Source of the DNA: Xestospongia bergquistia
Taxonomy: Eukaryota; Porifera; Demospongiae; Haplosclerida; Petrosiidae
Assembly (NCBI GenBank): GCA_963965975.1
Contig: OZ014421.1
Span: forward strand, 1,431,001-1,495,000
Length of the DNA stretch: 64,000 nucleotides
Direction of reading: 5' to 3'
Shown here: piece after piece, positions 4,040-56,200 of the stretch
How the letters are laid out: each line of letters begins with the position of its first letter
How positions within the stretch are numbered: the first letter of the stretch is position 1
Notes under the pieces: generated by a model
What the model saw: the letters and a program-made list of their open reading frames with translations, nothing else
What the model was told of the DNA's origin: nothing
Database searches by the model: none
Made by a program: the position numbers and the translations under genes

Positions 4040-7000
4040 ATTATTATGTACCTACAAAGAGGTATGGTCACTCCACACATATAGTGGGTGACTACCTTTA
4101 CATGTGGGGTGGTAATATAGATGGTCTCCCTAGAGTACATGATAATGAAGTCAAACAGAGGATGACCTCTGTTATTGAGGTATTTCACTTACCAACTGGT
4201 AGATGGGAACAAAGACCTACTAATGGAAAACCTCCACTGGGTGTCTGGGGCTATGCTTCCACTGTTATCAGTAAAAGGATCTACTATTTTGGAGGCTATT
4301 GTAATCATGGCCAGTGTCGTCACAATAGTGTCAACTCATTAATAACAGATTCACTTACATGGAATGAACTGTTCCCAACTAATCCAAGTATGGGTCCAAT
4401 GATGAAGTCACACTGTGGGATGATATCACTTACATCCAATAAAGTGGAGTATTTACTGGTAGTTGGTGGTATTGGTCCACGTCCTACCTCTCCACAATCT
4501 CGTGCTCAGTATAGTAATAAGGGAACATTTGGTGGTATTGTTCGTACTAATGAATACCACTATTATCAGTTATCCAGTGGTAAGATCAATATATCATGTT
4601 ATCAATACATTATATATCAGGTACAATTTTATAACTGTTTGTATTTCAGGTCAGTGGATAATACCAGAAATTACTGGAGAATGCCCACCTCCTTGTAGTC
4701 ACTTCACTCTTACATCACTACCTAATAACAGAGCTCTGTTATTTGGTGGTCTTACTCCTAATGGTCCTATTAACACTGTGTATATTGCTCAGTGTACAAA
4801 GACTGCAGTGGTAAGTACAATATGTATTAAGTTAAAGTATTTAGTTACTGTATAATATTGTGAAGTAATCAAGTTTAAAGTTTGATATTATTAAATGAAC
4901 TAAATTTATAGTATATAATGTCTTTATATTATTATTAGGAACTGTTTTATTAATAAACAAGTGATTTATTGTTTGTTAATATTTCTTTAATCAACTTAGA
5001 GGTTATATTGATAACTGAAACATTCCTTTAGTCAACTATATAGTGATACCATATTTCATTGACTAAATGTCACTCTTGAATAGTAGCCTCCCTTTTTGTA
5101 TATCAGTGAAATTGATGATGAGCTTGAATAAATGATACAATGACTGCTTAACAAAATTGTCTATTTATAATTTATAATTGATTATTAAAAAAGATAATTT
5201 TTATTTTTTAAAAATGTTTATTCAGTCAGGAAATAACTGTAGTTTCATAAAGTCCTTAAACAAATGAGTTCACAATGAGGTAATATTTGTTTAAAATTTC
5301 TGTCAATGCTTGATATATCATTTACTAACTGATACACAAAGTTTAAAGCTATTGTTTATCAGGAATGTTCAGAATCACTTCTAACTCTAGAAACTTTAAT
5401 AATTCACAATCATATTTTAAATAGTGACCTCAAATAGTAAATTTCCCTATTGTTGTTCAATATTAAAATAGATGTCCCAGGTCTTATTAAAGGAAATATT
5501 GTAACTAAATTAAAATCCACATAAACTATAAAATGAATAATATTCTTAAACATTTCCCAGTATACAGTATTAATTACTGCTATGTTAATTGTATAATATG
5601 TTAACTTGAATATTATCTACCCAGCACTGGGAGAAGATAAGTGAGCCACTTCACAAATCAGTGAATTGGCTTAAGAGTAGAGATTGTCATGCTACCACTA
5701 TTATCAGTGACCTACATGTGATGATGATGGGTGGAATTGGTACATATGACAGCTGGTTATTTAACATTGATACAAAGACATGGACAAAGGTTAGTTACTA
5801 GTTATCATGTGACCTAACACTAACACAAAGTGAGTTAATGTCTATGATCTACAGTATGAGGAGATATAATAAAGTGTGACTATTTGAACTTTGACCTCTG
5901 AAAATAACCCTCATCTATAGAAAATTTATAATTAATAATAGGTTTTTTTATGACCTGGTTTTATACCTGTAGTTCTGACACTATAGTATGTTAACATTTA
6001 TGATAGTATAGTCTATTGATATATCTGATTTGTTTATAGTTATAATTCAGTTATTAAAGATTGTAAATAAGTACTTATGTTCATGTTTTAAAGTATTGTA
6101 AAATGTCAACTCTACCAGTTCATACAAAGTTATAGTCTGTTACTAGAGTACATGTATCCACTGATGTTACATGTATAATGACTAGTTTTGTAGTAATATC
6201 ATTAACATCATTATTATAATGTCATATAGTACACAATATTCCATCTTATAGCTCAATATACCAGAGTCAGTGACTAAGAGGTGGAGCCAATCCCTCTCAT
6301 TATGGAATGTGTCACCTACCACTGTATGGGTAATACAATTTGGAGGATGCTTAGGTGGTAAACTCAATGATACTACAGTGACAGAACTTAGTAAGTATTG
6401 TCTATTGATAATAGTATTTGTTATATAGTACACACACACATTATAACAGTATGATATAGGAGTATTGACACAATAACTGTTTATATTACAAACTAGTCTC
6501 ATAACTCAATACTATTGTAACATACTATATCTCTCACTGTAGTATGTAATGATGACCAATGGACTGTAGGAGATGTAATAACTAACCTGACATTTACTGA
6601 AGAATATCAACTTAAGCTACAACAGAAGAGACATGGACAACCTCAACTTACTGTCCAATCTCTTACACGTCTTCAACCTTCATCTTCATCACGTCAAGAA
6701 TTACAAGACAAAGACAGAGAAATTCAATGTTTACCACGACAACTTGAAGATACCAAACAACAGCAGATAGATATGACAAGAGCTCTTCAAGAGGACCTTC
6801 AAACAAAAGAAAGACAACTACATCAACTACATCAAGAACTTCAAGAGAAACAACAAACTCAAGCTATACTTCAACAACAGCTACAAGATAGTCAAGAGAG
6901 AGAAAGAGTACTACGTCAAGAGTGTGATGACCTTCACCAAGAACATGATGATTATCGTCAACAACATGATAATATTGAACAAGGTCTTCGTCAACAAATC

Positions 7001-7840
7001 CAAGAGTCAACTACTGCTCTTCAACAAACACATCAAGCTAATGCCACTCTACAACAACAAGTTCAACAGTTACAAAAACTGTCTCACTGGGTAGTGAGGA
7101 AGGAGGAGATTGAGATGACTGACGAAGTTCTTGGGAAAGGAGGTTGGGGAGAAGTCAAGGTGGCTATATTTTGTGGCCTGAGAGTAGCTGCGAAATGTCT
7201 TTATGAAGTTATCATGTCACCATATAACATATCAGTTTTTACAAGAGAAATGGAGATTGCTGCTCGAGTACGTCATCCTAATCTCCTTCAGTTCATAGGA
7301 GCCACTAAAGTGGGTGGTCCTATCATCCTCTCAGAACTAATGCCAACTAGTCTCCGCAAAGAGCTAGAAGCTGGTCCACTACCCTATCCTGCTGTTCTGA
7401 CTATCAGTCAAGATATAGCCTGTGGTCTCAACTATCTCCACCTCTTTGAACCAGACCCAATACTACATAGAGATGTCAGCACTGCTAACGTTCTGTTACT
7501 GCCAATTGTTGGTGGGTGGAGAGCCAAGGTATCAGACTATGGTTCAGCTAATCTTCAACCAATGATTGGTCGTACAGTCAATCCAGGTAATCCAGTTTAT
7601 TCTGCTCCAGAAGCTGGTGTACCAAGAGACCATTCTCCTGCAATGGATGTTTACAGTTATGGTGTTGTCTTGATTGAAATGATGATCTGTCGTATTCCTG
7701 AGGTAGCTCAGAGACAACTTCATATTAACAGTATTACACGACCAATGTTTAAAGCTCTTATTGAGCGATGTTTGAAAGAGAATTGTAGAGAACGTCCGAC
7801 AATGTCAGAGATCCTTACAGACTTAAATGAAACCATTTAA
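4040..7840 (+). CDS. U1 kelch propeller-coiled coil-TKL kinase
   Basis: Visible exons: 4040-4579, 4650-4810, 5625-5789, 6252-6390, 6543-7840, all in phase, about 767 codons. Exons 1-4 encode six kelch blades (GG doublets such as MWGGN, YFGGY, VVGGI, LFGGL, MMGGI, QFGGC). Exon 5 encodes a Gln-rich coiled coil (about 6640-7080) and then a tyrosine-kinase-like domain: loop GKGGWGEV, beta-3 Lys in VAAKCL, catalytic HRDVSTANVLL, metal-binding DYG, and SAPEA. All catalytic residues are present, so it should be active; no signal peptide or membrane helix is visible, suggesting a cytoplasmic sensor kinase. The first exon is unresolved: the TTCTACAG acceptor needs one base from an upstream exon. The best candidate is a tiny ATGATGGAACTT exon near 3877. 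Unit-specific residues include YG (blade 1), WG (blade 2) and DC (blade 5). Confidence 0.85.
4811..5624 (+). other. Conserved 0.8 kb kelch-gene intron
   Basis: The intron between kelch exons B and C has a GTAAGT donor and CCCAG acceptor. It is AT-rich, contains no ORF or RNA gene that I can see, and is nearly identical in all units. U1 lacks an AT-palindromic segment of about 100 bp (after about 5187) that the other copies carry. Confidence 0.7.
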
Positions 7841-7933
7841 TAGTATACTAGTGTGTGTTATAATTTTAGTAGTGAGGTTATTATAATAGTTAGTTTAGTT
7901 ATTGTACTATGTGTGAGTATTATAATAATATTA

Positions 7934-7943
7934 CCATATATGG
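7934..7943. promoter_or_regulatory. CArG-type motif CCATATATGG, repeated per unit
   Basis: A perfect CC(A/T)6GG decamer, the consensus bound by SRF-family MADS proteins, lies about 95 bases after the kinase stop. It recurs at 15052-15061, 23335-23344, 31634-31643, 39020-39029, 48703-48712 and 57507-57516, and in a coiled-coil-gene intron at 551-560 and 41271-41280. Presence is certain; function is only a possibility, because the flanks are copied with the unit. Confidence 0.35.
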
Positions 7944-10137: not shown

Positions 10138-10181
10138 GCAGGGCCAAGTCTTAATGAAGAAACTATTTAAAAAGAGCAGTC

Positions 10182-10540
10182 ATGTCTATAGACAATTATA
10201 CAAAGATTGAAAAGATTGGAGAAAGGACTTATGGCATTGTTTACAAGGTAAATCTTCTTTCACGCTATATTTCTTACTTGTTTTAAAGGCTAGACGTAAA
10301 GCTACTGGTGAGTTTGTGGCCTTGAAGGAAATACGTCTTGAGAGTGAGGAAGAAGGTGTACCCAGTACAGCTATTAGAGAGATTTCAATATTGAAGGAAG
10401 TTCAACATCCTAATGTTGTGACGTAAGTGAGAGTGAGAGTGTGTGTGAGTATTGTGAAGTGAACGGAATGTGGTTTATTCACTATTAGAATAGCTCGAAA
10501 TGATCTGAACTCTCCCTCCCTCCCTCACTCCCTCCCTCCC

Positions 10541-10603
<63 letters not shown>

Positions 10604-10730: not shown

Positions 10731-11057
10731 GTAATGATCACAGTAATAATGGATACATGAACATATTATAACATTAATATTTTATGTATCATTAACTGTA
10801 TACTGTATTAACACACATTAATACATCTGAATTGATAACTTATAATAAATAGAATAACTTGTATAGTCTAAGATTACTTGTTTTATGATGGAACTTGTAA
10901 GTAGAGAGTTGTCATCAATTATAATAACTAAGAACTCATTATTAAGGGCGTGTCTATTTTGAAAAGAAAAGATGGGGATGGCTACATCTAGATCAGGTTT
11001 GACTACATTAATATAATAGTTATCTATTGTTATGTGTGTGTGTGTCATGTTCTACAG

Positions 11058-14000
11058 ATTATTATGTACCTACAAAGAGGTATGGTCACTCCACACATAT
11101 AGTGGGTGACTACCTCTACATGTGGGGTGGTAATATAGATGGTCTCCCTAGAGTACATGATAATGAAGTCAAACGGAAGATGACCTCTGTTATTGAGGTA
11201 TTTCACTTACCAACTGGTAGATGGGAACAACGACCTACTAATGGCAAACCTCCACTGGGTGTCTATGGCTATGCCTCTATTGTTATCAGTAACAGGATCT
11301 ACTATTTTGGAGGACGTTGTAATCATGGCCAGTGTCGTCACAATAGTGTCAACTCATTAATAACAGATTCACTTAGATGGAATGAACTGTTCCCAATTAA
11401 TCCAAGTATGGGTCCAATGATGAAGTCAGACTGTGGGATGATATCACTTACATTCAATAAAGTGGATTATCTACTGGTAGTTGGTGGTATTGGTCCACGT
11501 CCTACCTCTCCAGAAGCTGGTGCTCAGTATAGTGATGCTTATGGTGGTAATGTTCGCACTAATGAACACCACTATTATCAGTTATCCAGTGGTAAGAAGA
11601 TCAATATATCATGTTATCAATACATTATATATCAAGTACAATTTTATAACTGTTTGTATTTCAGGTCAGTGGATAATACCAGATATTAGTGGAGAATGTC
11701 CACCTCCTTGTCGTAGCTTCACTCTTACATCTCTACCTAATAACAGAGCTATGTTATTTGGTGGTAATACTCCTAATGGTTATATTAACACTGCGTATAT
11801 TGCTCAGTGTAAAAAGATTGCAGTGGTGAGTACAATATGTATTAAGTTAAAGTATTTAGTTACTGTATAATATTGTGGAGTAATCAAGTTTAAAGTTGAT
11901 ATTATTAAATGAACTAAATTTATAGTTGTCTTTATATTATTATTAGGAACTGTTTTATTAATAAACAAGTGATTTATTGTTTGTTAATATTTCTTTAATC
12001 AACTTAGAGGTTATATTGATAACTGAAACATTCCTTTAGTCAACTATATAGTGATACCATATTTCATTGACTAAATGTCACTCTTGAATAGTAACCTCCC
12101 TTTTTGTATATCAGTGAAATTGATGATGAGCTTGAATAAATGATACAATGACTGCTTAACAAAATTGTCTATTGATAATTTATAATTGATTATTAATATT
12201 AATATTATATATATAATAATAATATGTATAATATTATATTAATTAATATTAAGTTGTTCTGTTAAGTGGAAAACACACAAAAAAGATAATTTTTATTTTT
12301 TAAAAATGTTTATTCAGTCAGGAAATAACTGTAGTTTGATAAAGTCCTTAAACAAATGAGTTCACAATGAGGTAATATTTGTTTAAAATTTCTGTCAATG
12401 CTTGATATATCATTTACTAACTGATACACAAAGTTTAAAGATATTGTTTATCAGGAATGTTCAGAATCACTTCTAACTCTAGAAACTTTAATAATTCACA
12501 ATTATATCTTAAATAGTGACCTCAAATAGTAAATTTCCCTATTGTTGTTCAATATTAAAATAGATGTCCCAGGTCTTATTAAAGGAAATATTGTAACTAA
12601 ATTAAAATCCACATAAACTATAAAATGAAGAATATTCTTAAACATTTCCCAGTATACAGTATTAATTACTGCTATGTTAATTGTATAATATGTTAATTTG
12701 AATATTATCTACCCAGCACTGGGAGAAGATAAGTGAACCACTTCACAAATCAGTGAATTGGCCTCAGAGTAGATATGATCATGCTACTACTATTATCAGT
12801 GACCTACATGTGATGATGATGGGTGGATATGACAGCTGGTTATTTAACATTGATACAAAGACATGGACAAAGGTTAGTTACTAGTTATCATGTGACCTAA
12901 CACTAACACAAAGTGAATTAATGTCTATGATCTACAATATGAGGAGATATAATAAAGTGTGACTATTTGAACTTTGACCTCTGAAAATAACCCCTCATCT
13001 ATAGAAAATTTATAATTAATAATAGTCATTGTTTTTTTGACCTGGTTTTATACCTGTAGTACTGACACTATAGTATGTTAACATTTATGATAGTATAGTC
13101 TATTGATATATCTGATGTGTTTATAGTTATAATTCACTTATTAAAGATTGTACATAAGTACATATGTTCGTGTTTTAAAGTATTGTAAAATGTCAATTCT
13201 ACCAGTTCATACAATGTTATAGTCTGTTACTAGAGTACATGTATCCACTGATGTTACATGTATAATGACTAGTTTTGTAGTAATATCATAACATCATTAT
13301 TATAATATCATATAGTACACTATATTCCATCTTATAGCTCAATATACCAGAGTCAGTGACTAAGAGATGGAACCACTCCCTCTCATTATGGAATGTGTCA
13401 TCTACCACTGTATGGGTAGTACAATTTGGAGGATTCTATAATGGTAAACTCAATGATACTACAGTGATAGAACTTAGTAAGTACTATCTGTCAATGATAG
13501 TATTTGCAAAATAGTACACACACACACATTATCAGAATTATAACAGTATGATATAGGAGTATTGACACATTAACTGTTTATATTACAAACTAGTCTCATA
13601 ACTCAATACTATTGTAACATACTATATCTCTCACTGTAGTATGTAATGATGACCAGTGGACTGTAGGAGATGTAATAACTAACCTGACATTTACTGAAGA
13701 ATATCAACTTAAGCTACAACAGAAGAGACATGGACAACCTCAACTTACTGTCCAATCTCCTACACATCTTCAACCTTCATCTTCATCAGGTCAAGAATTA
13801 CCAGAGAAAGATAAAGAAATTCAATTTTTAACACAACAACTTGAAGTTACCAATAAAGAGCTACAAGATACCAAACAACAGCAGATAGATATGACAAGAG
13901 CTCTTCAAGAGGACCTTGAAACAAAAGAAAGACAACTACATCAACTACATCAAGAACTTCAAGAGAAACAACAAACTCAAGCTATACTTCAACAACAGCT

Positions 14001-14958
14001 ACAAGATAGTCAAGAGAGAGAAAGAGCACTACGTCAAGAGTGTGATGACCTTCACCAAGAACATGACGATTATCGTCAACAACATGACAATATTGAACAA
14101 GATCTACGTCAACAACTCCAAGAGTCAACCTCTGCTCTTCAACAATCACGTCAAGCTAATGCTACTCTTCAACAACAAGTTCAACAGTTACAAGAACAGT
14201 CTCACTGGGTGGTGAGGAAGGAGGAGATTGAGATTGCTGAGGACATTCTTGGGAAAGGAGTTTGGGGAGAAGTCAAGGTGGCTAAATTTCGTGGCCTTAG
14301 AGTAGCTGCCAAATGTCTTCATGAAGTTATCCTGTCACCATATAACATATCAGTTTTTACACGAGAAATGGAGATTGCTGCTCGAGTACGTCATCCTAAT
14401 CTCCTTCAGTTCATAGGAGCCACTAAAGTGGGTACTCCTATCATCCTCTCAGAACTAATGCCAACTAGTCTTCGCAAAGAGCTAGAAGCTGGTCCTCTAC
14501 CTTATCCTGCGGTTCTGACTATCAGTCAAGATATAGCCTATGGTCTCAACTATCTCCACCTCTTTAAACCATACCCTATACTACATAGAGATGTTAGCAC
14601 TGCTAACGTTCTGTTACTGCCAATTGTTGGTGGGTGGAGAGCCAAGGTATCAGACTATGGTTCAGCTAATCTTCAACCAATGATTGGTCGTACAGTCAAT
14701 CCAGGTAATCCAGTTTATTCTGCTCCAGAAGCTGGTGTACCAAGAGACCATTCTCCTGCAATGGATGTTTACAGTTATGGTGTTGTCTTGATTGAAATGA
14801 TGATCTGTCGTATTCCTGAGGTAGCTCAGAGACAACTTCATATTAACAGTATTAGACGACCAATGTTTAAAGCTCTTGTTGAACGATGTTTGAAGGAGAA
14901 TCGTAGAGAACGTCCGACAATGTCAGTAATCATAAAATTCTTCAACGAAACCATTTAA
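11058..14958 (+). CDS. U2 kelch propeller-coiled coil-TKL kinase
   Basis: Exons 11058-11591, 11665-11825, 12717-12872, 13338-13476, 13640-14958; in phase, about 769 codons, same layout as U1. Variable residues: blade 1 YG, blade 2 YG, blade 3 D before C, blade 4 RS, blade 5 YD, blade 6 WNH; the blade 5 GG loop is the shortest of the set (GGYDSW). The coiled coil (about 13740-14200) is followed by the kinase: the glycine loop reads GKGVWGEV; Lys in VAAKCL, HRDVSTANVLL, DYG and SAPEA are intact. Ends NETI. The 5' exon is unresolved, as in U1; the candidate ATGATGGAACTT exon is near 10887. Confidence 0.85.
12192..12292. repeat. AT palindromic segment in kelch intron
   Basis: About 100 bp of near-palindromic AT sequence (ATTAATATTAATATTATATA and following), present at this intron position in U2-U7 and absent from U1 near 5187. 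Either an AT-rich insertion shared by six units or a deletion in U1. Confidence 0.5.
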
Positions 14959-19176: not shown

Positions 19177-19324
19177 AGAGAGTTGTCCTCAATTATAATA
19201 ACTGAGAGCTCATTATTAAGGGCGTGTCTAATTTGAAAGAAAAGCTGGCTACGTCTAGATCAGGTTTGACTACGTTATTATAATAGTTTTCTATTGTTAT
19301 GTGTGTGTGTGTCATGTTCTACAG

Positions 19325-22300
19325 ATTATTATGTACCTACAAAGAGGTATGGTCACTCCACACATATAGTGGGTGACTACCTCTACATGTGGGGTGGTAA
19401 TATAGATGGTCTCCCTAGAGTACATGATAATGAAGTCAAACAGAGGATGACCTCTGTTATTGAGGTATTTCACTTACCAACTGGTAGATGGGAACAAAGA
19501 CCTACCAATGGAAAACCTCCACTGGGTGTCTTGAGCTATGCCTCCACTGTTATCAGTAACAGGATCTACTATTTTGGAGGCTACTGTAATCATGATGAGT
19601 GTCGTTACAATAGTGTCAACTCATTAATAACAGATTCACTTACATGGAATGAACTGTTCCCTACTAATCCAAGTATGGGTCCAATGATGAAGTCATACTG
19701 TGGGATGATATCACTTACATTCAATAAAGTGGATTATCTACTGGTAGTTGGTGGATATGGTCTACATCCTACCTCTCCACAATCTGGTGCTCAGTATAGT
19801 GATGTTTATGGTGGTGATGTTCGTACTAATGAACACCACTATTATCAGTTATCCAGTGGTAAGAAGATCAATATATCATGTTATTAATACATTATATATC
19901 AAGTACAATTTTATAACTGTTTGTATTTCAGGTCAGTGGATAATACCAGAAATTACTGGAGAATGCCCACCTCCTTGTAGTCACTTCACTCTTACATCAC
20001 TACCTAATAACAGAGCTCTGTTATTTGGTGGTATTACTCCTAATGGTACTAGTAACACTGTGTATATTGTTCAGTGTACAAAGACTGCAGTGGTGAGTAC
20101 AATATGTATTAAGTTAAAGTATTTAGTTACTGTATAATATTGTGTAGTAATCAAGTTTAAAGTTTGATATTATTAAATGAACTAAATTTATAGTATATAA
20201 TGTCTTTATATTATTATTAGGAACTGTTTTATTAATAAACAAGTGATTTATTGTTTGTTAATATTTCTTTAATCAACTTAGAGGTTATATTGATAACTGA
20301 AACATTCCTTTAGTCAACTATATAGTGATACCATATTTCATTGACTAAATGTCACTCTTGAATAGTAGCCTCCCTATTTGTATATCAGTGAAATTGATGA
20401 TGAGCTTGAATAAATGATACAATGACTGCTTAACAAAATTGTCTATTGATAATTTATAATTGATTACTAATATTAATATTATATATATAATAATAATATG
20501 TATAATATTATATTAATTAATATTAAGTTGTTCTGTTAAGTGAAAAACACACAAAAAAGATAATTTTTATTTTTTAAAAATGTTTATTCAGTCAGGAAAT
20601 AACTGTAGTTTCATAAAGTCCTTAAACAAATGAGTTCACAATGAGGTAATATTTGTTTAAAATTTCTGTCAATGCTTGATCTATCATTTACTAACTGATA
20701 CACAAAGTTTAAAGCTATTGTTTATCAGGAATGTTCAGAATCACTTCTAACTCTAGAAACTTTAATAATTCACAATTATATTTTAAATAGTGACCTCAAA
20801 TAGTAAATTTCCCTATTGTTGTTCAATATTAAAATAGATGTCCCAGGTCTTATTAAAGGAAATATTGTAACTAAATTAAAATCCACATAAACTATAAAAT
20901 GAAGAATATTCTTAAACATTTCCCAGTATACAGTATTAATTACTGGTATGTTAATTGTATAGTATGTTAACTTGAATATTATCTACCCAGCACTGGGAGA
21001 AGATAAGTGAACCACTTCGCAAATCAGTGAATTGGCCTCCGGTTAGAGATTATCATGCTACCACTATTATCAGTGACCTACATGTGATGATGGTGGGTGG
21101 ATATTATGGAATCTTCATTATTCCTGAAAGCTGGTTATTTAACATTGATACAAAGACATGGACAAAGGTTAGTTACTAGTTATCATGTGACCTAACACTA
21201 ACACAAAGTGAGTTAATGTCTATGATCTACAGTATGAGGAAAGTGTGACTATTTGAACTTTGACCTCTGAAAATAACCCTCATCTATAGAAAATTTCTAA
21301 TTAATAATAGTTATTGTTTTTATGACCTGGTTTTATACCTGTAGTCCTGACACTATAGTATGTTAACATTTATGATAGTATAGTCTATTGATATATCTGA
21401 TTTGTTTATAGTTATAATTCAGTTATTAAAGACTGTACATAAGTACTTATGTTCATGTTTTAAAGTATTGTAAAATGTCGACTCTACCAGTTCATACAAA
21501 GTTATAGTCTGTTACTAGAGTACATGTATCCACTGATGTTACATGTATAATGACTAGTTTAGTAGTAATATCATAACATCATTATTATAATATCATATAG
21601 TACACTATATTCCATCTTATAGCTCAATATACCAGACTCAGTGACTATGAGAAGTAGACACTCCCTCTCATTATGGAATGTGTCACCTACCACTGTATGG
21701 GTAATACAATTTGGAGGATTATATCGTAATAAACTCAATGATACTACAGTGATAGAACTTAGTAAGTACTGTCTACTGATGATAGTATTTGTTATATAGC
21801 ACACACACACATTATCAGTATTATCACAGTATGATATAGGAGTATTGACACACTAACTGTTTATATTACAAACTAGTCTCATAACTCAATACTATTGTAA
21901 CATACTATATCTCTCACTGTAGTATGTAATGATGACCAGTGGACTGTAGGAGATGTAATAACTAACCTGACATCTACTGAAGAATATCAACTTAAGCTAC
22001 AACAGAAGAGACATAGACAACCTCAACTTACTGTCCAATCTCCTACACGTGTTCAACCTTCATCTTCATCATGTCAAGAATTACAAGAGAATGATAGAGA
22101 AATTCAACGTTTAACACGACAACTTGAAGTTACCAACAAAGAGCTACAAGATACCAAACAACAGCAGATAGATATGACAAGAGCTCTTCAAGAGGACCTT
22201 CAAACAAAAGAAAGACAACTACATCAACTACATCAAGAACTTCAAGAGAAACAACAAACTCAAGCTATACTTCAACAAGAGTTACAAGATAGTCAAGAGA

Positions 22301-23241
22301 GAGAAAGAGCACTACGTCAAGAGTGTGATGATCTTTACCGAGAACATGATGATTATCGTCAACAACATGACAATATTGAACAAGATCTTCGTCAACAACT
22401 CCAAGAGTCAACCTCTGCTCTTCAACAAACACGTCAAGCTAATGCTACTCTTCAACAACAAGTTCAACAGTTACAAGCACAGTCTCACTGGGTAGTGAGG
22501 AAGGAGGAGATTGAGATGACTGAGGAGATTCTTGGCAAAGGAGGTTGGGGAGAAGTCAAGGTGGCTAAATTTCGTGGCCTCAGAGTGGCTGCCAAATGTC
22601 TTTATGAAGTTATCCTGTCACCATATAACATATCAGTTTTTACACGAGAAATGGAGATTGCTGCTCGAGTACGTCATCCTAATCTCCTTCAGTTCATAGG
22701 AGCCACTAAAGTGGGTACTCCTATCATCCTCTCAGAACTAATGCCAACTAGTCTTCGCAAAGAGCTAGAAGCTGGTCCTCTACCTTATCCTGCTGTTCTG
22801 ACTATCAGTCAAGATATAGCCTGTGGTCTCAACTATCTCCACCTCTTTAAACCAGACCCTATACTACACAGAGATGTTAGCACTGCTAACGTTCTGTTAT
22901 TGCCAATTATTGGTGGGTGGAGAGCCAAGGTATCAGACTATGGTTCAGCTAATCTTCAACCAATGATTGGTCGTACAGTCAATCCAGGTAATCCAGTTTA
23001 TTCTGCTCCAGAAGCTGGTGTACCAAGAGACCATTCTCCTGCAATGGATGTTTACAGTTATGGTGTTGTCTTGATTGAAATGATGATCTGTCGTATTCCT
23101 GAGGTAGCTCAGAGACAACTTCATATTAACAGTATTAGACGACCAATGTTTAAAGCTCTTGTTGAACGATGTTTAAAAGAGAATCGTAGAGGACGTCCGA
23201 CAATGTCAAAGATCCTAACATACTTCAATGAAACCATTTAA
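19325..23241 (+). CDS. U3 kelch propeller-coiled coil-TKL kinase
   Basis: Exons 19325-19858, 19932-20092, 20991-21167, 21623-21761, 21923-23241; in phase, about 776 codons. Variable residues: blade 1 YG, blade 2 LS, blade 3 Y, blade 4 SH, blade 5 DY with an enlarged GG loop (GGYYGIFIIPE), blade 6 SRH. Kinase motifs GKGGWGEV, VAAKCL, HRDVSTANVLL, DYG and SAPEA are intact. The upstream deletion in this unit also removed the candidate ATGATGGAACTT first exon, so the start of this copy is especially uncertain. Confidence 0.8.
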
Positions 23242-27361: not shown

Positions 27362-27654
27362 GAACATATTATAGCATTAATATTTTATGTATCATTAACT
27401 GTATACTGTATTAACACACACTAATACATCTGAATGGAATAAATTATAATAAATAAAATAACTTGTATAGTCTAAGATTACTTGTTTTATGATGGAACTT
27501 GTAAGTAGAGAGTTGTCCTCAATTATAATAACTGAGAATTCATTATTAAGGGCGTGTCTAATTTAAAAGAAAAGCTGGCTACATCTAGATCAGGTTTGAC
27601 TACATTATTATAATAGTTATCTATTGTTATGTGTGTGTGTGTCATGTTCTACAG

Positions 27655-34905: not shown

Positions 34906-35200
34906 GAACATATTATAACATTAATATTTTATGTATCATTAACTGTATACTGTATTAACACACACTAATACATCTGAATGGAATAAATTGTAATAAATAA
35001 AATGACTTGTATAATCTAAGATAACTTGTTTTATGATGGAACTTGTAAGTAGAGAGTTGTCCTCAATTATAATAACTGAGAGCTCATTATTAAGGGCGTG
35101 TCTAATTTTAATGAAAAGCTGGCTACGTCTAGATCAGGTTTGACTACATTATTATAATAGTTATCTATTGTTATGTGCGTGTGTGTGTCATGTTCTACAG

Positions 35201-38200
35201 ATTATTATGTACCTACAAAGAGGTCATATCACTCCACACATATTGTGGGTGGCTACCTCTACATGTGGGGTGGTAATATAGATGGTCTCCCTAAGGTACA
35301 TGATAATGAAGTCAAACAGAGGATGACCTCTGTTATTGAGGTATTTCACTTACTAACTGGTAGATGGGAACAACGACCTACTATTGGAAAACCTCCACTG
35401 GGTGTCTATGACTATGCCTCTATTGTTATCAGTAACAGGATCTACTATTTTGGAGGACGTTGTAATCACGACCAGTGTCGTCACAATAGTGTCAACTCAT
35501 TAACAACAGATTCACTTACATGGAATGAACTGTTCCCAACTAATCCAAGTATGGGTCCAATGATGAAGTCACACTGTGGGATGATATCACTTACATTCAA
35601 TAAAGTGGATTATCTACTGGTAGTTGGTGGTATTGGTCCACGTCCCACCTCTCTACAACCTGGTGCTCAGTATAGTGATGATTACGGCAATAATGTTTGT
35701 ACTAATGAACACCACTATTATCAGTTATCCAGTGGTAAGAAGATCAATATATCATGTTATTAATACATTATATATCACGTACAATTTTATAACTGTTTGT
35801 ATTTCAGGTCAGTGGATAATACCAGATATTATTGGAGAATGTCCACCTCCTTGTGATAGGTTCACTCTTACATCACTACCTAATAACAGAGCTCTGTTAT
35901 TTGGTGGTGATACACCTAATGGTCCTATTAACACTGTGTATATTGCTCAGTGTACAAAGACTGCAGTGGTGAGTACAATATGTATTAAGTTAAAGTATTT
36001 AGTTACTGTATAATGTTGTGGAGTAATCAAGTTTAAAGTTTGATATTATTAAATGAACTAAATTTATAGCATATAATGTCTTTATATTATATATTTCATT
36101 GACTAAATGTCACTCTTGAATAGTAGCCTCCCTTTTTGTATATCAGTGAAATTGATGATGAGCTTGAATAAATGATACAATGACTGCTTAACAAAATTGT
36201 CTATTGATAATTTATAATTGATTATTAATATTAATATTATATATATAATAATAATATGTATAATATTATATTAATTAATATTAAGTTGTTCTGTTAAGTG
36301 AAAAACACAAAAAAAGATAATTTTTATTTTTTAAAAATGTTTATTCAGTCAGGAAATAACTGTAGTTTTATAAAGTCCTTAAACAAATGAGTTCACAATG
36401 AGATAATATTAATTTTGTTTAATTTCTGTCAATGCTTGATCTATCATTTACTAACTGATACACAAAGTTTAAAGCTATTTTATCAGGAATGTTCAGAATC
36501 ACTTCTAACTCTAGAAACTTTAATAATTCACAATTATATTTTAAATAGTGACCTCAAATAGTAAATTTCCCTATTGTTGTTCAATATTAAAATAGATGTC
36601 CCAGGTCTTATTAAAGGAAATATTGTAACTAAATTAAAATCCATATAAACTATAAAATGAACAATATTCTTAAACATTTCCCAGTATACAGTATTAATTA
36701 CTGCTATGTTAATTGTATAATATGTTAGCTTGAATATTATCTACCCAGCACTGGGAGAAGATAAATGAACCACTTCACAAATTAGTGAATTGGCCTCAGA
36801 GAAGATGGGGTCATGCCACCACTATTATCAGTGACCTACATGTGATGATCGTGGGTGGATATGGTACATTTGACTGCTGGTTATTTAACATTTATACAAA
36901 GACATGGACAAAGGTTAGTTACTAGTTATCATGTGACCTAACACTAACACATAGTGAGTTAATGTCTATGATCTACAATATGAGGAGATATAATAAAATG
37001 TGACTATTTGAACTTTGACCTCTGAAAATAACTCTCAATAGACAATTTATAATTAATAATAGTTATTGTTTTTATGAACTGGTTTTATACCTGTAGTCCT
37101 GACACTATAGTATGTTAACATTTATGATAGTATAGTCTATTGATATATCTGATTTGTTTATAGTTATAATTCAGTTATTAGAGACTATACATAAGTACTT
37201 ATGCTCATATTTTAAAGTATTGTAACATGTCAACTCTACCAGTTCATACAAAGTTATAGTCTGTTACTAGAGTACATGTATCCACTGATGTTACATGTAT
37301 AATGACTAGTTTTGTAGTAATATCATAACATCATTATTATAATGTCATATAGTACACTATATTCCATCTTATAGCTCAATATACCAGAGTCAGTGACTAT
37401 GAGATATGGCCACTCCCTCTCATTATGGAATGTGTCACCTACCACTGTGTGGGTAGTACAATTTGGAGGATGCTTTGGTGTCAATAATGCTACAGTGATA
37501 GAACTTAGTAAGTACTGTCTATTGATGATAGTATTTGTTATATAGTACACACACACATTATCAGTATTATAACAGTATGATATAGGAGTATTGACACACT
37601 AACTGTTTATATTACAAACTAGTCTCATAACTATTGTAACATACTATATCTCTCACTGTAGTATGTAATGATGACCAGTGGACTGTAGGAGATGTAATAA
37701 CTAACCTGACATCTACTGAAGAATATCAACTTAAGCTACAACAGAAGAGACATGGACAATCTCAACTTACTGTCCAATCTCCTACACGTCTTCAACCTTC
37801 ATCTTCATCACGTCAAGAATTACAAGAGAAAGATAGAGAAATACAACGTTTAACAAAACAACTTGAAGTTACCAACAAAGAGCTACAAGATACCAAACAA
37901 CAGCAGATAGATATCACAAGAGCTCTTCAAGAGGACCTTGAAACAAAAGAAAGACAACTACATCAACTACATCAAGAACTTCAAGAGAAACAACAAACTC
38001 AAGCTATACTTCAACAAGAGTTACAGGATAGTCAAGAGAGAGAAAGAGTACTATGTCAAGAACGTGATAATTTTCGTCAACAATTACAGGGCTCAACCTC
38101 TGCTCATCAACAATCACGTCAAGCTAATGCCACTCTTCAACAACAAGTTCAACAGTTACAAGAACAGTCTCACTGGGTAGTGAGGAAGGAGGAGATTGAG

Positions 38201-38917
38201 ATAACTGAGGAGGTTCTTGGGAAAGGAGGTTGGGGAGAAGTCAAGGTTGCTAAATTTCGTGGCCTTAGAGTAGCTGCCAAATGTCTTTATGAAGTTATCC
38301 TGTCACCGTATAACATATCAGTTTTTACAAGAGAAATGGAGGTTGCTGCTCGAGTACGTCATCCTAATCTCCTTCAGTTCATAGGAGCCACTAAAGTTGG
38401 TAGCCCTATCATCCTCTCAGAACTAATGCCAACTAGTCTTCGCAAAAAGCTAGAAGCTGGTCCTCTACTCTATCATGCTGTTCTGACTATCAGTCAAGAT
38501 ATAGCCTGTGGTCTCAACTATCTCCACCTCTTTAAACCAGACCCTATACTACATAGAGATGTCAGCACTGCTAACGTTCTTCTCACATATGGGCAGTTTG
38601 GGTGGAGAGCCAAGGTATCAGACTATGGTTCAGCTAATCTTCAACCAATGATTGGTCATACAGTCAATCCAGGTAATCCAGTTTATTCTGCTCCAGAAGC
38701 TAGTGTACCAAGAGACCATTCTCCTGCAATGGATGTTTACAGTTATGGTGTTGTCTTGATTGAAATGATGATCTGTCGTATTCCTGAGGTAGCTCAGAGA
38801 CAACTTCATATTAACAGTATTAGACGACCGACATTTAAAGCTCTTATTGAACGATGTTTGAAAGAGAATCGTAGAGAACGTCCGACAATGTCAGAGATCC
38901 TAACATACTTCAATTAA
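35201..38917 (+). CDS. U5 kelch propeller-coiled coil-TKL kinase
   Basis: Exons 35201-35734, 35808-35968, 36749-36913, 37375-37507, 37662-38917; in phase, about 749 codons. Variable residues: blade 1 SY, blade 2 YD, blade 3 H, blade 4 DR, blade 5 WG with GGYGTFDCW, blade 6 YGH with a loop two codons shorter (GGCFGVNN). The coiled coil carries Ile where others have Met (codon at 37913), which only matters if that Met were a start. Kinase motifs are intact. The stop falls three codons earlier than in the other units (TAA in place of GAA). The large B-C intron lacks about 150 bp found elsewhere. The candidate first exon is near 35034. Confidence 0.85.
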
Positions 38918-39196
38918 ACCATTTAATAGTATACTAGTGTGTGTTATAATTTTAGTAGTAAGGTTATTATAATAGTTAGTTTAGTTATTGTACTAAGTGT
39001 GATTATTATAATAATATTACCATATATGGACATTTTGCAGAGAAGTGAATGCATGAATTATAACTGGCATTTCTGCCCTTTCACTTAGAGAAGACAATAC
39101 TAGACTATATATATAGAGAGAATGTTCATAGAGAAAGTTTTATCGCAAATGTTGACTGACATACAGTTATATTAACAATATAAAATATAATGTTAT

Positions 39197-44383: not shown

Positions 44384-44677
44384 GAACATATTATAACATT
44401 AATATTTTATGTATCATTAACTGTATACTGTATTAACACAGACTAATACATATGAATGGAATAACTTATAATAAATAAAATAACTTGTATAGTCTAAGAT
44501 TACTTGTTTTATGATGGAACTTGTTAAGTAGAGAGTTGTCTTCAATTATAATAGCTGAGAGCTCATTATTAAGGGCGTGTCTAATTTGAAAGAAAAGCTG
44601 GCTGCGTCTAGATCAGGTTTGACTACATCATTATAATAGTTATCTATTGTTATGTGTGTGTGTATCATGTTCTACAG

Positions 44678-47600
44678 ATTATTATGTACCTACAAAGAGG
44701 TATAGTCACTCCACACATATAGTGGGTGACTACCTCTACATGTGGGGTGGTGATATGAATGGTCTCCCTAGAATGCATGACAATGAAGTCAAACGGAAAA
44801 TGACCTCTGTTATTGAATTATTTCACTTACCAACTGGTAAATGGGAACAACGACCTACTAATGGAAAACCTCCACTGGGTGTCTGGGGTTATGCCTCAAC
44901 TGTTATCAGCAAGAGGATCTACTATTTTGGAGGCTACTGTAATCATGATGATTGCCGTTACAATAGTCTTAACTCATTAATAACAGATTCACTTACATGG
45001 AATGAACTGTTCTCAACTAATCCAAGTATGGGTCCAATGATGAAGTCACAATGCGGAATGATATCACTTACATTCAATAAAGTGGATTATCTACTGGTAG
45101 TTGGTGGATATGGTCTACGTCCCACCTCTCTACAATCTGGTGCTCAGTATAGTGATACTCCTAGTAATAATGTTCGTACAAATGAACACCACTATTATCA
45201 GTTATCCAGTGGTAAGAAGATCAATATATCGTGTTATCAATACATTATATATCAAGTACAACTTTATAACTGTTTGTATTTCAGGTCAGTGGATAGTACC
45301 AGAAATCACTGGAGAATGTCCACCTCCTTGTAGTCACTTCACTCTTACATCACTACCTAATAATAGAGCTCTGTTATTTGGTGGTTATACTCCTAATGGT
45401 TTTATTAACACTGTGTATATTGCTCAGTGTACAAAGACTGCAGTGGTGAGTACAATATGTATTAAGTTAAAGTATTTAGTTACTGTATAATATTGTGGAG
45501 TAATCAAGTTTAAAGTTTGATATTATTAAATGAACTAAATTTATAGTATATAATGTCTTTATATTATTATTAGGAACTGTTTTATTAATAAACAAGTGAT
45601 TTATTGTTTGTTAATATTTCTTTAATCAACTTAGAGGTTATATTGATAACTGAAACATTCCTTTAGTCAACTATATAGTGATACCATATTTCATTGACTA
45701 AATGTCACTCTTGAATAGTAGCCTCCCTTTTTGTATATGAGTGAAATTGATGATGAGCTTGAATAAATGATACAATGACTGCTTAACAAAATTGTCTATT
45801 GATAATTTATAATTGATTATTAATATTAATATTATATATATAATAATAATATGTATAATATTATTTTAATTAATATTAAGTTGTTCTGTTAAGTGAAAAA
45901 CACAAAAAAAGATAATTTTTATTTTTTAAAAATGTTTATTCAGTCAGGAAATAACTGTAGTTTTATAAAGTCCTTAAAACAAATGAGTTCACAATGAGGT
46001 AATATTTGTTTAAAATTTCTGTCAATGCTTGATCTATCGTTTACTAACTGATACACAAAGTTTAAAGCTATTGTTTATCAGGAATATTCAGAATCACTTC
46101 TAACTCTAGAAACTTTAATAATTCACAATTATATTTTAAATAGTGACCTCAAATAGTAAATTTCCCTATTGTTGTTCAATATTAAAATAGATGTCCCAGG
46201 TCTTATTAAAGGAAATATTGTAACTAAATTAAAATCCACATAAACTATAAAATGAACAATATTCTTAAACATTTCCCAGTATACAGTATTAATTACTGTT
46301 ATGTTAATTGTATAATATGTTAACTTGAATGTTATCTACCCAGCACTGGGAGAAGATAAGTAAAACATTTCTCAAATCATGGAATTGGCCTCAGAGTAGA
46401 TTGGGTCATGCTACCACTATTATCAGTGACCTACATGTGATAATGGTAGGTGGACATTATGGATTCATCCATACTATTGCTGACAGCTGGTTATTTAACA
46501 TTGATACAAAGACATGGACAAAGGTTAGTTACTAGTTATCATGTGACCTAACACTAACACAAAGTGAGTTAATGTCTATGATCTACAATATGAGGAGATA
46601 TAATAAAGTGTGACTATTTGAACTTTGACCTCTGAAAATAACCCTCATCTATAGACAATTTATAATTAATAATATTTATTGTTTTTATGACCTGGTTTTA
46701 TACCTGTAGTCCTGACACTATAGTATGTTAACATTTATGATAGTATAGTCTATTGATATATCTGATTTGTTTATAGTTATAATTCAGTTATTAAAGACTG
46801 TACATAAGTACTTATGTTCATGCTTTAAAGTATTGTAACATGTCAACTCTACCAGTTCATACAAAGTTATAGTCTGTTACTAGAGTACATGTATCCACTG
46901 ATGTTACATGTATAATGACTAGTTTTGTAGTAATATCATAACATCATTATTATAATGTCATATAGTACACTATATTCCATCTTATAGCTTAATATACCAG
47001 AGTCAGTGACTAAGAGATGGGACCACTCCCTCTCAGTATGGAATGTGTCACCTACCACTGTATGGGTAGTACAATTTGGAGGACTCTATGGTGGTAAACT
47101 CAATGATACTACAGTGATAGAACTTAGTAAGTACTGTCTATTGATGATAGTATTTGTTATATAGTACATACACACATTATCAGTATTATCACAGTATGAT
47201 ATAGGAGTATTGACACACTAACTGTTTATATTACAAACTAGTCTCATAACTCAATACTATTGTAACATACTATATCTCTCACTGTAGTATGTAATGATGA
47301 CCAGTAGACTGTAGGAGATGTAATAACTAACCTGACATCTACTGAAGAATATCAACTTAAGCTACGACAGAAGAGACATGGACACCCTCAACTTACTGTC
47401 CAATCTCCTACACGTCTTCAACTATCATCTTCATCACATCAAGAATTACAAGAGAAAGATAGAGAAATACAACGTTTAACACGACAACTTGAAGTTACCA
47501 ACAAAGAGCTACAAGATACCAAACAACAGCAGATAGATATGACAAGAGCTCTTCAAGAGGACCTTGAAACAAAAGAAAGACAACTACATCAACTACATCA

Positions 47601-48609
47601 AGAACTTCAAGAGAAACAACAAAATCAAGCTACACTTCAACATGAGCACAGAAATAGAGAAAGGTTACTTCAACAACAACTACAAGATCAAGAAGAGAGA
47701 GAAAGAGGACAGTTACAGGATAGTCAAGAGAGGGAAAGAGTACTATGTCAAGAACGTGATGATTTTCGTCAACAATTTCAGGACTCAACCACTGCTCTTC
47801 AACAAACATGTCAAGCTAATGCCACTCTTCAACAACAAGTTCAACAGTTACAACAACAGTCTCACTGGGTAGTGAGGAGAGAGGAGATTGAGATGACTGA
47901 GGAGATCCTTGGGAAAGGAGGTTGGGGAGAAGTCAAGGTGGCTAAATTTCGTGGCCTTAGAGTAGCTGCCAAATGTCTTTATGAAGTTATCCTGTCACCA
48001 TATAACATATCAGTTTTTACGAGAGAAATGGAGATTGCTGCTCGAGTACGTCATCCTAATCTCCTTCAGTTCATAGGAGCCACTCGAGTGGGTAATCCCA
48101 TCATCCTCTCAGAACTAATGCCAACTAGTCTTCGCAAAGAGTTAGAAACTGGTCATCCTGCTGTTCTGACTATCAGTCAAGATATAGCCTGTGGTCTCAA
48201 CTATCTCCACCTCTTTAAACCAGACCCAATACTACATAGAGATGTCAGTACTGCTAATGTTCTTCTTACACATGGGCAGTTTAGGTGGAGAGCCAAGGTA
48301 TCAGACTATGGTTCAGCTAATCTTCAACCAATGATTGGTCGTACAGTCAATCCAGGTAATCCAGTTTATTCTGCTCCAGAAGCTGGTGTACCAAAAGACC
48401 ATTCTCCTGCAATGGATGTTTACAGTTATGGTGTTGTCTTGATTGAAATGATGATCTGTCGTATTCCTGAGGTAGCTCAGAGACAACTTCATATTAACAG
48501 TATTAGACGACAAGCGTTTAAAGCTCTTATTGAACGATGTTTGAAAGAGAATCGTAGAGAACGTCCAACAATGTCAGAGATCCTAACAGACTTCAATGAA
48601 ACCATTTAA
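44678..48609 (+). pseudogene. U6 kelch-coiled coil-TKL kinase with nonsense codon
   Basis: Exons 44678-45211, 45285-45445, 46344-46523, 46988-47126, 47288-48609. The reading frame is otherwise continuous, but the Trp of the conserved DDQWTVGD motif is TAG at 47305-47307, just after the propeller. A spliced product would be a six-blade kelch protein of about 340 residues without kinase; an internal ATG at 47539 opens a 356-codon coiled-coil-kinase frame. Variable residues: blade 1 YS, blade 2 WG, blade 3 Q, blade 4 SH, blade 5 LG with a long loop (GGHYGFIHTIAD), blade 6 WDH. Kinase motifs are intact. The candidate first exon near 44512 has an extra T, which would change its splice phase. Confidence 0.75.
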
Positions 48610-53038: not shown

Positions 53039-53257
53039 GAACATATTATAACATTAATATTTTATGTATCATTAACTGTATACTGTATTAACACACACTA
53101 ATACATCTGAATGGAGTAAATTATATTAAAATAACTGAGAGCTCATTATTAAGGGCGTGTCTATTTTGAAAGAAAAGCTGGATACGTCTAGATCAGGTTT
53201 GACTACATTATTAAAAAACTTATCTATTGTTATGTGTGTGTGTGTCATGTTCTACAG

Positions 53258-56200
53258 ATTATTATGTACCTACAAAGAGGTCTCATCACTCCACACATAT
53301 AGTGGGTGACTACCTCTACATGTGGGGTGGTAATATAGATGGTCTCCCTAGAGTACATGATAATGAAGTCAAACAGAGGATGACCTCTGTTATTGAGGTA
53401 TTTCACTTACTAACTGGTAGATGGGAACAACGACCTACTAATGGAAAACCTCCACTGGGTGTCTATGGCTATGCCTCAACTGTTATCAGTAACAGGATCT
53501 ACTATTTTGGAGGACGTTGTAATCATGATGAGTGTCGTTACAATAGTGTCAACTTATTAATAACAGATTCACTTACATGGAATGAACTGTTCCCAATTAA
53601 TCCAAGTATGGGTCCAATGATGAAGTCAAGCTGTAGGATGATATCACTTACATTTAATAAAGTGGATTATCTACTGGTAGTTGGTGGTATTGGTCCACGT
53701 CCCACCTCTCCACAATCTGGTGCTCAGTATAGTGATATAGGAATAACACCTAGTGGTAATGTTCGTACTAATGAACACCACTATTATCAGTTATCCAGTG
53801 GTAAGAAGATCAATATATCATGTTATTAATACATTATATATCAAATACAATTTTATAACTTTTTGAATTGCAGGTCAGTGGATAATACCAGAAATTACTG
53901 GAGAATGTCCACCTCCTTGTAGTAATTTCACTCTTACATCACTACCTAATAACAGAGCTCTGTTATTTGGTGGTTACACTCCTAATGGTCCTATTAACAC
54001 TGTGTATATTGCTCAGTGTACAAAGACTGCAGTGGTGAGTACAATATGTATTAAGTTAAAGTATTTAGTTATTGTATAATATTGTGGAGTAATCAAGTTT
54101 AAAGTTTGATATTATTAAATGAACTAAATTTATAGTATATAATGTCTTTATATTATTATTAGGAACTGTTTTATTAATAAACAAGTGATTTATTGTTTGT
54201 TAATATTTCTTTAATCAACTTAGAGGTTATATTGATAACTGAAACATTCCTTTAGTCAACTATATAGTGATACCATATTTCATTGACTAAATGTCACTCT
54301 TGAATAGTAGCCTCCCTTTTTGTATATCAGTGAAATTGATGATGAGCTTGAATAAATGATACAATGACTGCTTAACAAAATTGTCTATTGATAATTTATA
54401 ATTGATTATTAATATTAATATTATATATATAATAATAATATGTATAATATTATATTAATTAATATTAAGTTGTTCTGTTAAGTGGAAAACACAAAAAAAG
54501 ATAATTTTTATTTTTTAAAAATGTTTATTCAGTAACTGGAAATAACTGTAGTTTCATAAAGTCCTTAAACAAATGAGTTCACAATGAGGTAATGTTTGTT
54601 TAAAATTTCTGTCAAAGCTTGATCTATCATTTACTAACTGATACACAAAGTTTAAAGCTATTGTTTATCAGGAATGTTCAGAATCACTTCTAACTCTAGA
54701 AACTTTAATAATTCACAATTATATTTTAAATAGTGACCTCAAACAGTAAATTTCCCTATTGTTGTTCAATATTAAAATAGATGTCCCAGGTCTTATTAAA
54801 GGAAATATTGTAACTAAACTAAAATCCACATAAACTATAAAATGAACAATATTCTTAAACATTTCCCAGTATACAGTATTAATTACTGCTATGTTAATTG
54901 TATAATATGTTAACTTGAATATTATCTACCCAGCACTGGGAGAAGATAAGTGAACCACTTCACGAATCAGTGAATTGGCCTAAGAGGAGAGATTGTCATG
55001 CTACCACTATTATCAGTGACCTACATGTGATGATGGTGGGTGGACATTATGGATTCGTCAGTATTGCTGACAGCTGGTTATTTAACATTGATACAAGGAC
55101 ATGGACAAAGGTTAGTTACTAGTTATCATGTGACCTAACACTAACACAAAGTGAGTTAATGTCTATGATCTACAATATGAGGAGATATAATAAAGTGTGA
55201 CTATTTGAACTTTGACCTCTAAAAATAACCCTCATCTATAGAAAATTTCTAATTAATAATAGTTATTGTTTTTATGACCTGGTTTTATACCTGTAGTCCT
55301 GACACTATAGTATGTTAACATTTATGATAGTACACTGTAAAAAGTTATTATTATAAAAATTATTTGGTTATACAGGTTGCAATTACAAACTTATTTTTGT
55401 TAGAAAAGTAAACATAATACTGTTTTCATTAGTACTATTAAGGTTACTTTTTATATATGCAACCCACATAACCATCTATTGGTTAAATTAACTAATCAAT
55501 TTTTACAGTGTATAGTCTATTGATATATCTGATTTGTTTATAGTTATAATTCACTTATTAAAGACTGTACATAAGTACTTATGTTCATGCTTTAAAGTAT
55601 TGTAACATGTCAACTCTACTAGTTCATACAAAGTTATAGTCTGTTACTAGAGTACATGTATCCACTGATGTTACATGTATAATGACTAGTTTTGTAGTAA
55701 TATCATAACATCATTATTATAATGTCATATAGTACACTATATTCCATCTTATAGCTCAATATACCAGAGTCAGTGATTAAGAGATGGAGCCACTCCCTCT
55801 CGTTATGGAATGTGTCACCTACGACTGTATGGGTAGTACAATTTGGAGGATTTAGATCGTATGATGGTAAACTCAATGATACTACAGTGATAGAACTTAG
55901 TAAGTACTGTCTATTGATAATAGTATTTGTTATATAGTACACACACATTATCAGTATTATCACAGTATGATATAGGAGTATTGACACACTAACTGTTTAT
56001 ATTACAAACTAGTCTCATAACTCAATACTATTGTAACATACTATATCTCTTACTCTAGTATACCAGTGGTCTGTAGGAGATGTAATAACTAACCTGAGGT
56101 CAACCAAAGAATATCAACTTAAGCTACGACAGAAGGGACATGAACAGCCTCAACTTGCTGTCCAATCTCCTATACATCATCAACTGTCTTCACTACATCA

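Follow-up and report, generated by a model that had tools for sequence, protein, structure and literature searches.

The stretch of DNA analysed here (the window; 64,000 nucleotides of the sponge Xestospongia bergquistia, C11:1431001-1495000) holds seven copies of a gene that combines a kelch propeller, a coiled coil and a kinase. All seven lie on the + strand, as read from open frames and a self-comparison of the window, with exon A frames that start at 4039, 11057, 19324, 27654, 35200, 44677 and 53257 in copies 1 to 7, and the exon order of copy 1 is repeated in the six remaining copies (Table 1). The gene model of copy 1, built from sequence alone, gives a predicted product of 772 residues with no transmembrane-like stretch (the highest 19-residue Kyte-Doolittle mean is 1.6, within the kinase), and the kelch-kinases may be intracellular. 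The family reaches far outside the window. Searches of the genome (146 Mb, 21 contigs) recovered at least 91 close places (64-100% identity to exon A) and at least 68 more distant ones, each list drawn from the best 150 scored candidates; the total of at least 159 exon-A-like places includes partial stretches and six with an internal stop. Exon A is free of stop codons in 90 of the 91 close matches.

The original prediction described a variable spot in each propeller blade of an otherwise invariant family, and every residue that it listed for blades 1 to 6 of the seven copies was found as stated. The residue after each GG motif is variable as well and makes up half of the face, a half that was absent from that prediction. 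We compared 23 full genes in 253 pairs by Nei-Gojobori counts (L031, L038 and L040 were dropped as repeats of window copies, and L049 was also left out). The proportions of nonsynonymous and synonymous differences (pN/pS) are 0.41/0.17 at the pair codons, a ratio of 2.39, and 0.40/0.14 at the residues after GG. The corresponding values are 0.16/0.11 for gapped loops, 0.036/0.058 for the kelch framework, and 0.060/0.131 (ratio 0.46) for the kinase. The introns are nearly unchanged, as had been claimed, with mean pairwise differences of 0.021-0.033 versus the pair-codon pN of 0.41, and the pN of the named codons is about 12 to 20 times the intron divergence. The 200 bases upstream of the genes differ by 0.144, and a 50-base scan of 22 whole genes (L045, with a long intron, was omitted) places the kelch exons mostly above their own introns in divergence. 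The description of the family as otherwise invariant is overstated, with a framework pN of 0.036 and some loops after GG that vary in length. Among pairs of genes with an intron distance of 0.01-0.015 (n = 9), 69% of the 18 pocket codons differ, as do 66-70% in more intron-distant pairs; in the four closest pairs (intron distance <0.004), the count is 1 of 72. Pocket differences are thus saturated except in very recent duplicates.

The pattern recurs outside the window, in distant families, and in a second sponge. Five exon A sites were fixed beforehand from the original prediction, and their entropy was compared with that of all columns by permutation. In 61 copies from outside the window (L002, L004, L009, L026 and L059 were left out), these sites have a mean of 2.35 bits versus 0.52 overall (p ~1e-5) and rank 11, 4, 1, 9 and 3 of 180 columns; with this p value, the pattern is not due to chance. 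The same sites have 1.85 bits versus 0.70 in 26 copies of the C5 family (p 3e-4) and 1.81 versus 0.46 in 14 copies of the C1 family (p 5e-5), both being distant families of the same genome, and 1.96 versus 0.75 in nine Amphimedon queenslandica proteins (p 2e-4). For three residues after GG, the p values are 0.006 in the outside copies, 0.005 in C5, 9e-5 in C1, and 2e-4 in A. queenslandica. These nine A. queenslandica proteins are the best protein matches to the kelch part (40-50% identity); the remaining 16 matches comprise 14 that span no more than 12-19% of the query and two host cell factor proteins from other animals. A wider search gave 61 matches, of which 49 A. queenslandica proteins were aligned, the other 12 matches being partial or short of one blade (P0008). 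In 48 of these proteins (one was removed at >=97% identity, and eight of the earlier nine are included), all but one of the 20 columns preset by motif across the six blades rank in the top 26 of 348; the exception, at rank 72, is the second position of the blade 2 pair. The R before and the H after the blade 1 pair hardly vary in C11, C5 and A. queenslandica; C1 shows some variation of the R (0.77 bits).

The composition of the face was examined in 73 distinct exon A copies (7 from the window and 66 from outside it) out of the 91 close matches, with the other 18 unused; L001, L008, L010 and L025 were among those dropped, as repeats of window copies 1, 2, 3 and 7. These copies carry 62 distinct nine-site faces, and the shared faces include those of recent duplicates. 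Tyrosine makes up 24% of residues at the nine exon A pocket sites versus 7% elsewhere in exon A, and the sites are also rich in serine and glycine.

Per-site tests gave partial support for the claim of positive selection at the named codons, which as a class show the excess of nonsynonymous over synonymous differences given above. Tests of the fixed-effects-likelihood (FEL) type on 69 unique exon A sequences (171 variable sites) identified 15 positive sites at p<0.05, seven of them after Bonferroni correction, and 24 negative sites. The positive sites include 10, 26, 70, 125 and 145, five of the eight preset exon A sites; among the five sites named in the original prediction, 10, 70 and 125 are positive and 9 and 71 are not. 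Site 92 is also positive, and site 32 is not. With a tree built from introns, tests of exons A-D in 22 full genes gave 18 positive and 17 negative sites at p<0.05 among 201 variable ones. Ten of the 18 preset codons are positive (A10, A70, A92, A125, A145, B16, B39, C20, C21 and D12), and in the loops C38, C39, C41, D34 and D35 are positive while A91 and C40 are negative.

The kelch part is closest to the propellers of KLHDC2 and KLHDC3. Copy 1 passes the Pfam profile for KLHDC2/KLHL20/DRC7 kelch propellers (105.8 bits, cut-off 50), which is matched by all 49 of the aligned A. queenslandica proteins (E up to 0.01). An AlphaFold model of one of these relatives, P0004 (predicted local distance difference test, pLDDT, 85), is a six-bladed propeller, and its best Foldseek match among those listed is KLHDC2 (9bca; E 6.8e-19, template modelling score 0.82 by target length). 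In this model, each of the six blades has its variable pair 2-3 residues ahead of the first strand, and the residue after GG lies 3 residues beyond the second strand of the blade. By topology, the variable sites of the six blades would therefore share one face of the propeller, in agreement with the structural expectation of the original prediction. Neither of the two outcomes named as refuting that prediction, dN/dS not above 1 at the named sites or a scatter of variable sites over buried and back-face positions, was obtained. The prediction had looked to Keap1 for the pocket. The Keap1 pocket positions, which we take to be equivalent to the variable sites by motif, do agree, but KLHDC2 and KLHDC3 are nearer in sequence and fold; in the structural search with the P0004 model, Keap1 was not among the matches listed (50 of 951), of which KLHDC2 is the nearest. 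A Keap1-like pocket was accordingly rejected. Unlike that of the kelch-kinases, the output of Keap1 is BTB-cullin.

In KLHDC2, residues R236, S269 and R241 hold the acid group of the ligand (PMC11470957). R236 and R241 align with the first and sixth residues after GG of blade 4, and S269 aligns with the first residue of the blade 5 pair; all three contacts reported there face columns that are variable across the 23 genes. Of 11 KLHDC3 contacts named in PMC11568203 that were checked, 10 match the letters of the chain at an offset of one and V115 does not; KLHDC2 residues did not turn up in a text search of that paper. Eight of the 10 placed contacts coincide with a pair position or the first residue after GG, and S34 and D97 with the third; R292 and R293 were placed by motif, the HMMER alignment being shifted there. 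A BC-box-like motif, which would bind elongin after the propeller, was not found in copy 1, the only copy scanned.

Linkage among copies is lost over short distances. In 18 full genes (the recent duplicates L032, L034, L036 and L039 were left out), the mean squared correlation (r2) between biallelic sites is 0.22 for sites up to 20 bases apart and drops to 0.06-0.07 once they are more than 100 bases apart, close to the floor of 0.059 expected under independence. The Hudson-Kaplan minimum number of recombination events (Rmin) is 65, a value that repeated substitution at the same site could inflate. With sites outside the kelch exons only and a looser frequency filter, r2 is 0.07-0.08 beyond 25 bases. 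The mutual information between blade variants, tested for 15 pairs, is close to shuffled values. Gene conversion may be the cause of this loss of linkage. The kelch introns of the 23 copies (2-3% apart) differ less than do the synonymous sites of either framework (5.8%) or kinase (13%); either gene conversion with selection keeping exon tracts apart or constraint on the introns would be sufficient to account for this likeness.

The predicted kinases have a complete set of tyrosine kinase-like (TKL) motifs, including the catalytic Lys, HRD, the DFG-type Asp and APE. HRD, DYG (for DFG) and APE are kept in all 23, and the catalytic lysine appears as VAAK in 21 and VAVK in two. The nearest solved kinases are TAK1, CTR1 and IRAK4, a likeness that holds at the group level only. 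The second half of the copy 7 kinase (56598-57365) is divergent, as if converted from a different kinase, and with the stop codon in copy 6 (see below), not all seven copies share the same intact output. The shared kinase output of the original prediction holds for the window family only. At the one C1-family locus that was followed, Death (E 3.4e-9) and ZU5 (2.7e-6) domains lie in downstream same-strand frames, above the Pfam cut-off, and the propeller may be spliced to them. Among the 49 A. queenslandica proteins, which are gene predictions by others, matches with E up to 0.01 comprise kinase (9), ZU5 (4), COR-A (3), Death (2), Ras (1) and Roc (1). CARD and ZU5 matches in P0009 are weak and below the Pfam cut-off, and CARD otherwise occurs only in UniRef names. 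The C-terminal piece of P0005 has no Pfam match, and the C5-family stretch L131 ends within the coil. Neither NACHT nor an LRR family was found in Pfam scans of copy 1, P0001-P0010 and the 49 A. queenslandica proteins.

Table 1 Coordinates of kelch-kinase features, numbered from the first base of the window
Feature	Position	Strand	Basis or detail
Copy 1, candidate first exon (MMELV), tentative	3875..3890	+	In-frame ATG then GT donor; same string ahead of copies 1, 2, 4, 5 (4/7)
Copy 1, kelch exon A, blades 1-3	4040..4579	+	Open frame, Pfam kelch, KLHDC2/KLHDC3 alignment
Copy 1, hypervariable pair, blade 1 (YG)	4063..4068	+	Entropy; exon A site test positive for second codon only
Copy 1, variable residue after GG, blade 1 (N)	4114..4116	+	Entropy; exon A site test
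Copy 1, hypervariable pair, blade 2 (WG)	4246..4251	+	Entropy; exon A site test positive for first codon only
Copy 1, loop after GG, blade 2 (YCNHGQ), residues 1 and 6 variable	4297..4314	+	Entropy; sixth positive in exon A site test, first not
Copy 1, hypervariable residue, blade 3 (H)	4411..4413	+	Entropy; exon A site test
Copy 1, variable residue after GG, blade 3 (I)	4471..4473	+	Entropy; exon A site test
Copy 1, kelch exon B, blade 4	4650..4810	+	Gene model, 23-gene alignment
Copy 1, hypervariable pair, blade 4 (SH)	4697..4702	+	First codon positive in 22-gene site test
Copy 1, loop after GG, blade 4	4751..4768	+	Residues 1, 6 align with KLHDC2 R236, R241; sixth positive in 22-gene test
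Copy 1, kelch exon C, blade 5	5625..5789	+	Gene model, 23-gene alignment
Copy 1, hypervariable pair, blade 5 (DC)	5682..5687	+	First residue aligns with KLHDC2 S269; 22-gene site test
Copy 1, variable-length loop after GG, blade 5	5736..5747	+	Alignment, 22-gene site test
Copy 1, kelch exon D, blade 6	6252..6390	+	Gene model, 23-gene alignment
Copy 1, variable triplet, blade 6 (WSQ)	6282..6290	+	22-gene test: middle codon positive, first negative
Copy 1, variable-length loop after GG, blade 6	6348..6356	+	Alignment, 22-gene site test
Copy 1, exon E: coiled coil (to 7081) and TKL-type kinase domain (7082-7837)	6543..7840	+	Pfam Pkinase 1.7e-27; nearest PDB TAK1, CTR1, IRAK4
Copy 2, exons A-E	11057..14955	+	A 11057, B 11667, C 12717, D 13338, kinase 14200-14955
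Copy 3, exons A-E	19324..23238	+	A 19324, B 19934, C 20991, D 21623, kinase 22483-23238
Copy 4, exons A-E	27654..31537	+	A 27654, B 28249, C 29302, D 29940, kinase 30782-31537
Copy 5, exons A-E	35200..38923	+	A 35200, B 35810, C 36749, D 37375, kinase 38168-38923
Copy 6, exons A-E	44677..48606	+	Stop codon opening exon E, upstream of kinase
Copy 7, exons A-E	53257..57365	+	Kinase second half of divergent type

Several other features accompany the tandem copies. A truncated eighth copy (window 58650-59758) consists of exon D and a shortened kinase; exons A-C do not appear at this place in the self-comparison. Copies 1 and 2 are each immediately preceded by a gene or fragment that resembles CDK1/2 by eye (2226-3747 and 10180-10760); it is shorter ahead of copy 2 and seems to travel within the tandem unit. 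A minisatellite with a unit of ~60 bases was read by eye at 57900-58600. Elsewhere on the contig, near-identical copies on opposite strands in C11 1.43-1.49 Mb and 1.76-1.96 Mb (e.g. 1435039 and 1777435) suggest a recent inverted segmental duplication or an assembly effect, and two exon A stretches stand in tandem at C11:240281-241475, the first of them partial.

On balance, and with some reserve, we favour the reading that these genes form an intracellular peptide-recognition repertoire diversified by selection and by gene conversion among paralogs. Its role would probably be immune or in allorecognition. The pattern reads as a recognition repertoire because a selected pocket and a fixed scaffold go together with reshuffled parts and interchangeable outputs. 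Each protein would be a cytosolic receptor whose six-bladed KLHDC2/KLHDC3-type kelch propeller holds in its central funnel a peptide, probably the tail or a loop of a protein, while the coiled coil would serve assembly and the TKL kinase, activated upon binding, would be the output. Each gene would have its own set of pocket residues. Diversifying selection would alter the pocket codons, and frequent gene conversion between paralogs would homogenise introns and framework and reshuffle the blades into new combinations.

Several observations weigh against this reading. The structural model is that of an A. queenslandica relative and not of a protein from the window. The Arg/Ser/Arg carboxylate-binding set of the KLHDC proteins is not kept as a set in the 23 genes, and the ligand therefore need not be a C-terminus. 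Pocket change is not very fast, as judged from the recent duplicates, and pS is itself higher at the pair codons (0.17) than in the framework (0.058). Three of the eight preset exon A sites fail in the site tests, with 71 and 87 not positive and 9 leaning negative (p 0.036), and among the preset codons of exons A-D, D11 is significantly negative and seven are neither; the smallest p in the latter tests is 0.001, and none passes Bonferroni correction over 201 sites. Because the copies recombine, tree-based site tests are approximate; the argument is carried by the tree-free pN/pS counts. In the C5 family, site 71 ranks only 90 and site 87 only 55 of 178 columns. The blades are not fully independent, as mutual information is above that of shuffled data at p<0.05 for seven of the 15 pairs (minimum p 0.006). 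Some genes are also damaged: two of the 23 kinases have a stop near the very end, copy 6 has a stop codon where exon E begins, ahead of the kinase, and the coil segment is interrupted or out of frame in two of the 23 genes (copy 6 and L046).

The alternative that survives best, itself unlikely, is allorecognition rather than defence: the propellers would read polymorphic self peptides or partners, and the kinase would report a mismatch at fusion or grafting. It draws on the same evidence as the favoured reading, and the comparable fungal genes, whose propeller face also varies, function in allorecognition (PMC1805685), but there are more loci with similar faces than expected of a classical allorecognition locus. 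We regard it as improbable that the proteins are specialised housekeeping readers, that is, adaptor kinases each fixed on one endogenous protein tail and without an immune role. The correspondence of the pocket to that of C-degron readers, the faces kept between recent duplicates, and the residual association of blade variants all accord with such readers; however, near-floor linkage across copies is odd for fixed pairings, the Death and ZU5 domains near a related propeller fit immune or death signalling better, and copy 1 lacks a recognisable BC-box-like motif.

It is highly improbable that a targeted mutator, similar to a diversity-generating retroelement (DGR) or a deaminase, writes the pocket codons with selection secondary. 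Many pocket codons have T or C in the third position, and the raised pS at the pair codons would also be expected of it, but third positions do vary at the nine exon A pocket codons (0.27 versus 0.10 elsewhere), codon pairs that differ only synonymously are no more frequent at the five pair sites (5.5%) than elsewhere (7.7%), and recent duplicates are almost unchanged; codon writing was set aside on the variation of third positions and the near-identity of recent duplicates. Relaxed constraint, with the variable sites as tolerant positions in decaying duplicates such as copy 6 with its premature stop or the truncated eighth copy, is hardly credible and pseudogene decay was ruled out, given a pocket pN 12 to 20 times the intron divergence, beyond what relaxation alone gives, the open frames of the close exon A matches, and the kinase pN/pS.

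The nearest published analogue found for the kelch-kinase repertoire is in the fungus Podospora, where the allorecognition genes het-d and het-e have WD40 repeats with four residues per repeat under diversifying selection at the interaction surface, and concerted evolution exchanges these repeats both inside a gene and from one family member to another (PMC1805685). Both systems have a propeller-type repeat domain with diversified surface residues, and the sponge blades are probably exchanged as well. The sponge genes differ in having kelch instead of WD40 repeats, a coiled coil and a kinase, and no NACHT that we found; the copies examined have six blades, and shuffling was measured among 18 paralogs. 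The C-degron receptors KLHDC2, KLHDC3 and KLHDC10 are alike in propeller type, with ligand contacts (KLHDC2 and KLHDC3) at the same pocket positions. They feed cullin-RING ligases, whereas the sponge pocket is hypervariable, its output is a kinase, and no BC-box-like motif was found in copy 1. Large receptor sets are also a feature of NLR repertoires, including those of sponges, in one of whose genomes NLRs with CARD or DEATH subtypes are reported (PMC12909245); unlike these, the sensor here is a kelch propeller, and no NACHT or LRR family occurs in the proteins scanned. Kelch genes or kelch domains are among the expression changes reported in other sponges, which could not be tied to this family (PMC6208332, PMC11000336). 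No kelch-kinase repertoire was described in the titles and openings of abstracts listed from the literature searched, which lacks bioRxiv and most subscription papers and of whose larger result sets a part was covered.

We are evenly divided on a broader proposal, that the family represents an animal class of kelch-propeller receptors in which a pocket that in KLHDC2 and KLHDC3 reads protein ends has been turned into a tyrosine-rich, antibody-like variable face. This class would comprise a repertoire of ~159 places with near-free recombination (measured in 18 copies) and plug-in outputs (TKL kinase, Death, ZU5 and perhaps CARD), and would be present in at least two sponge genomes. If so, it would be the second propeller, beside the fungal WD40 proteins, to carry a recognition repertoire with blades shuffled by gene conversion. 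A distinct ligand would be predicted for each gene, and the output domains would predict the pathway. Sponges are early-branching animals with few tissues, and the means by which they distinguish self from friend and foe are still debated; a large and structurally interpretable receptor set, with specificity residues legible in the sequence itself, would make the matter testable.

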